In this document: positions 54,008 to 55,438 of the stretch, one piece after another
Numbering within the stretch: position 1 is the first letter of the stretch
How the letters are laid out: every line of letters starts with the position of its first letter
Origin: Pseudomonas sp. LS44
GTDB taxonomy: Bacteria; Pseudomonadota; Gammaproteobacteria; Pseudomonadales; Pseudomonadaceae
Length of the DNA: 64,000 nucleotides
Reading direction: 5' to 3'
Assembly (NCBI RefSeq): GCF_024730785.1
Contig: NZ_CP102830.1
Span: 1,178,001 to 1,242,000 of the forward strand
Notes under the pieces: model-generated
Told to the model about the DNA's origin: nothing
The model's database searches: none
The model's input: the letters and a program-made list of their open reading frames with translations, nothing else
Position numbers and translations under genes: made by a program

Positions 54008-54063
54008 ATAGCTATGTACCCGTTAAGTATTGCGCACCGCTTTTGTAGATACCGTCTTGTCAC

Positions 54064-55035
54064 TCAGTGGGCAAGGGCCAGGCGAGCATCAAAGGGTTGG
54101 CCCGATTTGAGTACCCCATAGGCGATGTGCAGCAGTTTGCGCATCGCCGCGCAGACGATCTGCTTGCCGGCTTTGCCGCGGGCTCGCAGCCGCTGTGCCA
54201 GGGCTTTGATGGCCGGATTGTGGGTCAGCGAGACGACCGCCGGCATGTACAGGCCGGTGCGCAGACGAGCCGAGCCCACGCGGGAGATGCGCACGTGGCC
54301 CTTGTGCTGGCCCGACTCCTGCAGCTTCGGGTTCAACCCGGCGAACGCGGTGATCGCCCGGGCATTCTTGAACTGCAGCGGATCGCCCAGCTCCGCCAGG
54401 AGCAAGGCGGCCGTCTGCTCGCCGATGCCATCGATGCTGACCAGCAGATCGCGCTTACCGCGCAGGTTCGGATCGTCATCGATGTGTGCCCGGATGGCCT
54501 GCAGGGTCTCGGCAATCTGCTGCTCGACATGCTCCAGCACCGAACGGATCGAATCCTGCACGCTGGCATCGGCGACATCCAGGCGATTGCGCTCCATCTG
54601 CTCGATCTCCTTGAGGTCCTGCAGACGCCGCACCAACGCGCGCAGGCGGCGTATCGCCGGTGGCTCGGGCTGCCAGACGCGTAACTCATCCACGTGCCGC
54701 TGGCCGTAGCTGGCCATCAGCTTGGCGTCGACCTGGTCCGTCTTGACCCGCTGCAACTGGCTCCGGGCGTAGCTGGCAATCTGCGCGGGACTCATCACAC
54801 AGACCCGGTAGCCCAGGCCATGCAGGTGCTCGGCCAGCGCCTCGTGATAGGTGCCGGTGGCCTCCATCACGAGCCAGGCGCCCGGCTCGGCGTACTGCTG
54901 CAGCCACTCCTGGAGTACCCGGAAACCGGCGGCGCTGTTGGCCAACTTGGCCTTAGTGCGGTACTTGCCATTCGCCTGCAGGGTGACGATGTCGAAACTG
55001 TGCTTGGCGATGTCGATGCCGACGATGCTGGACAT
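54064..55035 (-). CDS. IS110-family transposase (DEDD/serine recombinase)
   Basis: A 323-residue IS110 recombinase. The N-terminal RuvC-like domain shows the DEDD residues Asp8 (GIDIAKHSFD), Glu57 (MEATGTYHEAL), and Asp99 and Asp102 (KTDQVDAKL). A coiled central part spans about 125-190. The C-terminal Tnp domain has the helix-hairpin SIDGIGEQTAALLLAELGD and AFAGLNPKLQESGQHKG, with Ser240 in the position of the catalytic serine of the family. VGSARLRTGLYMPA is also typical. The gene appears intact. Members of this family are guided by a bridge RNA encoded in a non-coding end of the element. Confidence 0.95.
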   Translation of the reverse strand: MSSIVGIDIAKHSFDIVTLQANGKYRTKAKLANSAAGFRVLQEWLQQYAEPGAWLVMEATGTYHEALAEHLHGLGYRVCVMSPAQIASYARSQLQRVKTDQVDAKLMASYGQRHVDELRVWQPEPPAIRRLRALVRRLQDLKEIEQMERNRLDVADASVQDSIRSVLEHVEQQIAETLQAIRAHIDDDPNLRGKRDLLVSIDGIGEQTAALLLAELGDPLQFKNARAITAFAGLNPKLQESGQHKGHVRISRVGSARLRTGLYMPAVVSLTHNPAIKALAQRLRARGKAGKQIVCAAMRKLLHIAYGVLKSGQPFDARLALAH

Positions 55036-55168
55036 GAAGACTCCTCAGCTAATCCATTCAGGATGATCATCACTGCACCCGGCCCTACCTTGTGAATGCG
55101 AGCTCTCACCTGTGGTGGGCCCTAGATACCGTTCGGACTGTTCGAGTGAGTGTGGAGGGCCGGAGCAC
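55036..55168 (-). ncRNA. Candidate IS110 bridge RNA region
   Basis: This is the 133-base non-coding left end between the inverted repeat and the transposase start, on the transposase strand. IS110-group elements encode their guide (bridge) RNA here. It contains GGGCC/GGCCC pairs able to form stem-loops (for example GGGCCC near 55118-55123 and GGCCGG near 55078 and 55158). It also carries ACGGTATCTA (55123-55132, minus strand), identical to ten bases spanning the opposite end of the element (54046-54055), as expected if a donor-binding loop recognises the element's own terminus. Boundaries and folding were not computed. Confidence 0.45.
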
Positions 55169-55180
55169 TATCTACAAAGC

Positions 55181-55438
55181 TGGCTCGAGGCCTTAGGGTG
55201 GGTACGACTTCCAGGCCCTCCCCGATGATCAGTCGGGAACTATCCCCCTCACGGGACGATAGTCGAGATACAAGGGTGGGTTAGCCGCGCAGCGGCGTAA
55301 CCCACCAGGCCTGAACGTCCCAACACGTAACTGGGGCAGAGCCTTTTTATGGGCGCTGATTACGGGTGACGAAAAGACTTGAACCCCCATCGCGCCGCCC
55401 ACTCTGTTGAAGAGCGAACGACTCTCAGGAGGTGCGAG
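55181..55438. repeat. Flank of the IS element with a TAACCCACC palindrome
   Basis: Between the IS repeat and the small proline-rich gene there is no convincing gene. A GGGTGGGTTA/TAACCCACC hairpin (55274-55306), of the family seen at 2868-2896, lies within it. The last bases carry the strong ribosome-binding site of the next gene. Confidence 0.6.

Follow-up and report, generated by a model that had tools for sequence, protein, structure and literature searches.

An insertion sequence of the IS110 family is carried by Pseudomonas sp. LS44 in a 64,000-nucleotide stretch of its genome, hereafter called the window. The locus raises the question of where this element ends and of what its long non-coding left end encodes. 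The initial annotation had placed the ends near 55180 and 54039, at a pair of inverted repeats, and had proposed a bridge RNA in the left end. Comparison with repeats of the same chromosome and with relatives in other genomes makes it nearly certain that the mobile element is an intact, ordinary but well-resolved insertion sequence of the IS110 group, with a bridge RNA predicted in its left end. All features described below lie on the minus strand.

The recombinase

The recombinase (transposase) is a protein of 323 aa encoded at 54064-55035, and its assignment draws on the open reading frame, Pfam, NCBIfam and solved structures. It matches the Pfam models DEDD_Tnp_IS110 and Transposase_20, and the NCBIfam model 'IS110 family RNA-guided transposase' matched above its cut-off, in agreement with the intact transposase reported initially. 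The protein shows the architecture of the IS110 group, namely a DEDD RuvC-like domain and a C-terminal Transposase_20 domain with a conserved serine. Among solved structures, only IS621 (E 1e-64) and ISCro4 (9t56, E 3.8e-64) were matched at E 0.001 or better. The nearest protein among the best 120 of 2403 database matches, at 96% identity, comes from Pseudomonas cavernae.

Residues D8, E58, D100, D103 and S241, which we take to be the catalytic positions by analogy with IS621 and from its alignment, were followed across 120 aligned rows (the element's own included, duplicate loci between collections kept). Variation was found at D8 only, in two rows. The initial annotation was right that the DEDD residues and the serine are kept; the serine is number 241, not 240. 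One of the two deviating rows is the second copy in the same genome (L048, G000:C1:818858-819826), which has Asn for the first catalytic Asp at position 8. The window copy may be the sole working one of the two. The other row, L071 of Pseudomonas mendocina FFL34, has Gly at this position and also the worst guide fit, with three of seven letters off. L071 may have been moved in trans or may sit at an off-target site.

Ends of the element and the interrupted REP

The insertion site lies inside a REP palindrome, TAACCCACC-CT-ACAAAAG, with a CT core on both sides. When the flanks of the element are joined at one CT, at least eleven places of the same chromosome align straight across the junction, a lower bound since 13 of 150 own-genome candidates were scored. 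Because these uninterrupted REPs align across the junction, the element is delimited as 55274-54049, i.e., 1226 bp including the left CT core (55274-55273), with the second CT at 54048-54047. The second own-genome copy supports the same limits, and the relatives' ends support the right core. The left non-coding end thus spans 237 nt (55036-55272) and the right one 15 nt (54049-54063). The interrupted REP, recognised from own-genome matches, continues on the left at 55275-55308 and on the right, with its repeated flank (ACAAAAGCGG...), at 54011-54046. The long upstream end with a short right end and the core dinucleotide present twice, as CT, are both traits of the IS110 group. In one relative copy of genome G266 (L131), CC replaces the right CT core. 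The IS110 group is also described by a short subterminal repeat of 2-3 bp (ATA/TAT). Here TAT follows TG after the left core (55270-55268 region), and visual inspection close to the right end showed no ATA partner.

When the element and its flanks were searched against the own genome, a single additional full copy (97%) was obtained, together with 57 short matches located in the flanks. The short matches include the REP palindrome free of any insert, e.g., CTGGTGGGTTACGCCGCTGCGCGGCTAACCCACC-CT-ACAAAAGCGG. The further copy occupies a different REP and has the same ends. Comparison with an empty site in a related strain had been suggested initially. Related genomes lack the REP at this locus, and it is the paralogous REPs of the own genome, the only empty sites used, that fix the ends. 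Indeed, 34 of 37 other genomes match the joined flanks, with no junction-crossing alignment at the locus; there the matches begin at or close to the dcd gene (query 465-531). The locus of G266 can be aligned to either side of the junction (query 40-277 and 468-841) and has no REP. A search of a plasmid collection gave three weak or partial records, the best at 71% over 79% (Xanthomonas sacchari), and a phage collection gave no match to the element.

Relatives and the donor segment

Relatives at E 1e-40 or better were found in 26 of 398 genomes of the genus, the own genome included. A scan of named genomes contributed the best 80 of 146 loci, mostly from Pseudomonas and Stutzerimonas. With further stretches added, the set came to 121 rows, each of roughly 280 aligned residues or more, and some loci are present twice because two collections hold them. 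Both ends were recognised in 103 rows, representing 45 distinct left ends; the other 18 were dropped as truncated, distant or without motifs. The ends were found by the motifs CTTGTAT and [AG]C[AG]GTATC, so the constancy of the termini is partly due to selection, while guides and targets played no part in finding them.

The initial annotation had pointed to a 10-base segment, TAGATACCGT, common to the left end and the right terminus. The segment is present as written and corresponds to the predicted left donor guide. Pairs of 10 bases are by themselves at chance level: about 1.7 exact inverted pairs are expected per 1.9 kb, and many pairs are equally long. What gives the segment its meaning is the comparison with relatives: 44 of 45 distinct ones have ACGGTATC at the corresponding position of the left end, and the remaining one, L168, has ACAGTATC both at that position and at its right end. 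The right-end copies were found with a motif for that segment, and this conservation is therefore partly by selection. Across the 45 left ends, the column of the right donor guide is conserved as [AG]CAAG.

For the 18 rows whose ends were not recognised, the longest segment common to the left and right end was compared with 100 shuffles. The donor segment was clear in L098, with 12 bases and 0/100 shuffles as long. It was weaker in L125 (5/100), L134_0 (15/100), L124 (17/100) and L122 (23/100). A different segment scored in L128 (1/100), though ACAGTTCAT is visible in both of its ends. Nine rows were at chance level, three were too short, and L073 was an artefact of a cut-off start.

Structure of the predicted bridge RNA

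Structure and guide matching point to a three-part bridge RNA in the left end, composed of a 5' stem-loop, a target loop and a donor loop. The region matched by the covariance model built here (R1) is 55068-55265 at 195.6 bits; the RNA itself is predicted and its ends are approximate. The 5' stem-loop (helix 1) falls at 55238-55264, the target loop with its stem (helices 3 and 4) at 55154-55220, and the donor loop with its stem (helices 5-7) at 55071-55152. The putative left target guide, ACCCACC with the core CT (55195-55203), equals the left flank at 55281-55273. It lies 16 bases upstream of the putative right target guide TTTGTAG (55172-55178), whose reverse complement, CTACAAA, stands in the right flank. 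The left donor guide ACGGTATCT (55124-55132, within TAGATACCGT) equals the right terminus and core at 54055-54047. Reading the sequence gives ACAAG (55089-55093) as the right donor guide, with the left terminus CTTGT (55274-55270) as its reverse complement. The left target guide had been overlooked initially. The region proposed for folding, 55036-55185, omits both that guide and the 5' stem-loop.

The alignment comprised 26 of the 28 left ends at under 93% identity, the most distant two (L168 and L102) being left out. RNAalifold predicted 56 pairs, 32 of them with compensatory changes. After removal of three pairs overlapping the donor guides, 53 pairs remained, with 94.5% of cells paired and 32 pairs with changes on both sides. 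Slid partners gave 30-44% paired, against 94.5% observed. None of 500 shuffles reached the observed value on any of five measures; two cautions are that a single alignment served both to derive the consensus structure and to count its pairs, and that the shuffles ignore kinship. A lack of conserved structure across homologous left ends had been named initially as one refuting outcome, and the structure proved to be conserved. The other refuting outcome named, boundaries at a distance from the repeats, did occur on the left side, by 94 bp.

In the window, the next match of the covariance model after this left end, itself one of the 26 sequences building the model, reached 7.2 bits. The model matched in 21 of 21 genomes, all picked for carrying the transposase. 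The fold of the single sequence was not better than shuffled (z -0.57), and a search of Rfam gave no match. A promoter at the circle junction, as described for the IS110 group, was not above chance, the best candidate having 8 of 12 consensus letters, a value reached by 14% of shuffles. Among the candidates for orphan bridge RNAs that were read, L199 and L200 turned out to be followed by a transposase, and L201 to be a short remnant. L201 (G164:C1:579825-579960) is a miniature derivative of about 73 bp, in which the first part of the left end is joined to the right terminus. It has neither target nor donor loop and adjoins a GCCCACC-CT flank.

Matching of guides and targets

One left target was taken for each of the 45 distinct left ends. 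The letters of the left guide from -7 to -1 equal the target in 44, 43, 43, 44, 44, 44 and 45 of 45, and the match falls to 14/45 at -8 and 2/45 at -9. There are 19 distinct 7-letter guides, and 130 of their 133 letters match the left target; 100,000 shuffled targets gave a mean of 64.4 and a maximum of 101. A register test with 18 guides gave 123 of 126 matching letters in register, compared with 21-52 of 126 after shifts of 1-12 bases. The best match was found at the expected register in 17 of the 18 guides and one base off in the remaining one. Mismatches to the target occur in L071, as described above, and in L024, where one letter is off. The L168 family has one guide, with copies in ATCCACC, ACCCACC and GCCCACC.

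The right guide reads GTAG in 42 of 45 left ends, the exceptions being L074 and L030 (ATAG) and L102. In L102 the right target is CTCTCC, with a fitting right guide GGAGAG. Beyond GTAG, the right guide matches weakly (33/45 at the next letter, then 10-15 of 45). On a quickly built tree of 34 transposases, in which 16 of 31 inner branches have weak support, the left guide shows a minimum of 22 changes. L140 (GTACGCC) and L074 (ATCCACC) form the clearest pair: their transposases are near-identical and their guides differ, each element standing at its own match. In L031 (P. putida W15Oct28) and L153 (G110), the core-facing guide letters are CG and CA, and the elements stand at CT. Pairing at the second core base may be dispensable, G110 having 22 bridge RNA matches.

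Guides and host repeats

Exact occurrences of guide plus CTAC were counted on both strands for five patterns in 21 of the 26 genomes carrying a relative. The pattern of the window element, ACCCACCCTAC, occurs 126 times in the own genome, compared with 3 for the reversed pattern. It also occurs 79 times in G266 and 18 times in G078, the other carriers of this guide, and at most 14 times in the other 18 genomes. The target was identified by test as a GTAG-tagged REP, i.e., a high-copy short palindrome with GTAG at one end. GTAG is described as the end tag of a large REP class (PMC3733652).

Similarly, GCCGCTCCTAC is found 447, 394 and 84 times in its three carriers and at most 11 times in 16 other genomes. 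It is also common in G078 (129) and G012 (54), whose guides differ. The pattern GCAGCTCCTAC occurs 790, 323, 305 and 42 times in four carriers and at most 13 times in the other 17, and CCAGCTCCTAC 103 times in its carrier, 53 times in G129 and at most 16 times in the other 19. The reversed-pattern control is high for GCCGCTCCTAC, GCAGCTCCTAC and CCAGCTCCTAC, for which the comparison between genomes is the better one. Against the idea of a host repeat, GTACGCCCTAC occurs only 4 times in its carrier G113, versus 43 times in G078 and 26 times in the own genome. The guides thus point mostly, not always, at a repeat common in the host, with G113 as one clear exception. G113 has seven bridge RNA matches and four uninterrupted GTACGCCCTAC sites, and its targets read TTCGCGAGTACGCCCTACGCGAA or similar. 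Its target is perhaps a low-copy repeat that is already mostly filled.

It is our own, mildly new reading that GTAG, the REP end tag, persists in one half of the target guide while the other half changes. In the literature searched, which did not extend to preprints and most subscription journals, no paper on guides following host REPs across Pseudomonas was found. A broader reading, to which we give slightly less than an even chance, is that the two halves of the target guide have separate functions in this branch of the IS110 group, which is centred on Pseudomonas. The right half would keep GTAG and the 7-nt left half would change fast and track the stem of the host REP or another repeat. 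The element would in this way stay locked on an abundant, mostly intergenic repeat in any genome that it enters, by natural re-programming of its RNA and with a recombinase that changes little or not at all.

Alternative readings

The initial annotation had seen an unusual hybrid, in which subterminal inverted repeats typical of IS1111 and ends near 55180 and 54039 are combined with the long upstream end of the IS110 group. The 10-base inverted pair, TTTGTAGATA and TATCTACAAA, is real, and its letters are present; they are not the ends of the element. The uninterrupted REPs place the left end 94 bp beyond 55180 and the right repeat mostly in target DNA. In the half TATCTACAAA, TAT belongs to the element, CT to the second core and ACAAA to the target, so that 7 of its 10 bases are core and target DNA. 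The left half (55178-55169) contains TTTGTAG, the putative right target guide. The 'inverted repeat' arises because the right target guide of a bridge RNA has the target beside the element as its reverse complement. Other letters occupy the left copy in relatives (AACGTAG, ATCGTAG etc.), and the bases beyond the core vary with the insertion site. Long subterminal inverted repeats of the IS1111 kind (7-17 bp) are therefore absent, the right half being target DNA and the left one an internal guide. An IS1111-type long non-coding end with an RNA downstream of the transposase gene is likewise absent, the right end having only 15 nt. Rejected by the uninterrupted REPs, the hybrid is left with virtually no probability.

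It is also very improbable that the REP-like letters of the left end (ACCCACCCT and TTTGTAG) are a captured scrap of REP or a product of chance and not guides. REPs are abundant in this genome (126 exact ACCCACCCTAC), and 9-base matches arise by chance. However, relatives with quite different targets carry fitting letters at the same two places of the loop, with 130/133 observed versus a shuffled maximum of 101, and the best match keeps the same register in 17 of 18 guides, the other being one base off. A different doubt concerns the present activity of the window copy, which could belong to a bridge-RNA element and no longer be mobile. Only two copies exist in the genome, and the other has lost its first catalytic Asp to Asn. 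Nevertheless, the window copy has a complete reading frame and has lost none of the five catalytic residues, neither of its ends and none of its guides, and close relatives occur in multiple copies (G266 has 8 bridge RNA matches and G110 has 22). By its sequence the window copy looks intact, and loss of mobility is considered unlikely.

Proposed mechanism and significance

With the ends, the REP site, the conserved RNA structure, the match of guides to targets and the identity of donor guide and terminus established by sequence comparison, a mechanism can be proposed. The bridge RNA would be encoded in the 237-nt left end and would have the three parts named above. The left target guide ACCCACC-CT would read the foot of the REP stem, and the right target guide TTTGTAG the GTAG end tag and three bases further. 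The donor loop would read the junction of the element's circular form (ACGGTAT-CT-TGT), and the DEDD/serine recombinase would exchange strands at the CT core. Strand exchange at this core would let the element land in a REP with CT on both sides. By analogy with IS621, the RNA is presumably made, a circular intermediate formed and strands exchanged, and the copy may still be moving.

What is new is this copy and the worked example that it offers, not the kind of element, and it is the comparative pattern that makes the case interesting. With this copy, the IS110 group gains an element that is fully delimited, apparently intact and readable in its guides. The element also illustrates that an inverted repeat seen by eye at such an element can be an RNA guide and not an end. 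Moreover, the 19 distinct guides, some of them on near-identical recombinases, provide a natural series on how bridge RNAs are re-programmed in evolution. The same series bears on why REPs so often serve as insertion sites.

Comparison with known systems

Insertion into REPs by IS110-family elements was described in 2006 for IS621, ISPa11, ISPpu9, ISPpu10 and ISRm19, and REP was given as a preference for ISPsy7 (PMC1525189). A 2024 study described bridge RNAs and their guides and showed 16 natural guides to be concordant with their targets (PMC11208160), and natural redirection was described in one IS1111 pair (PMC11187229). ISPa11 of P. aeruginosa resembles the element in its REP target and RNA guide (PMC11187229, PMC1525189). 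It differs as a member of the IS1111 group, with an RNA downstream of the transposase gene and subterminal inverted repeats, neither of which occurs here.

ISPpu10 and ISPpu9 of Pseudomonas putida KT2440, compared by their published descriptions, are likewise IS110-family elements inserted in REPs. Every copy is described as lying in a REP with 2-bp direct repeats (PMC1525189). A bridge RNA has been predicted for ISPpu10 (PMC11208160), and a 244-nt 5'-UTR is described for ISPpu9 (PMC8450116). ISPpu9 differs by two small RNAs and separate ssr9 copies, and no feature resembling a downstream RNA was seen in the element here.

ISCro4 (9t56) was compared by its recombinase alone, which is related over nearly the whole length (E 3.8e-64). 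A further comparison is with IS621 of E. coli, an IS110-group element whose bridge RNA was shown by experiment (PMC11208160). Both have a DEDD/serine recombinase (E 1e-64) and a long left and short right non-coding end. The three-part bridge RNA in the left end, the CT core and the insertion into REPs are also shared, as are the order of the loops and the sides of the guides (PMC11208160). The element here differs in its guides and its REP sequence, and in being known from sequence alone. On this footing, it is assigned to the plain IS110 group, as a relative of IS621 and ISCro4.
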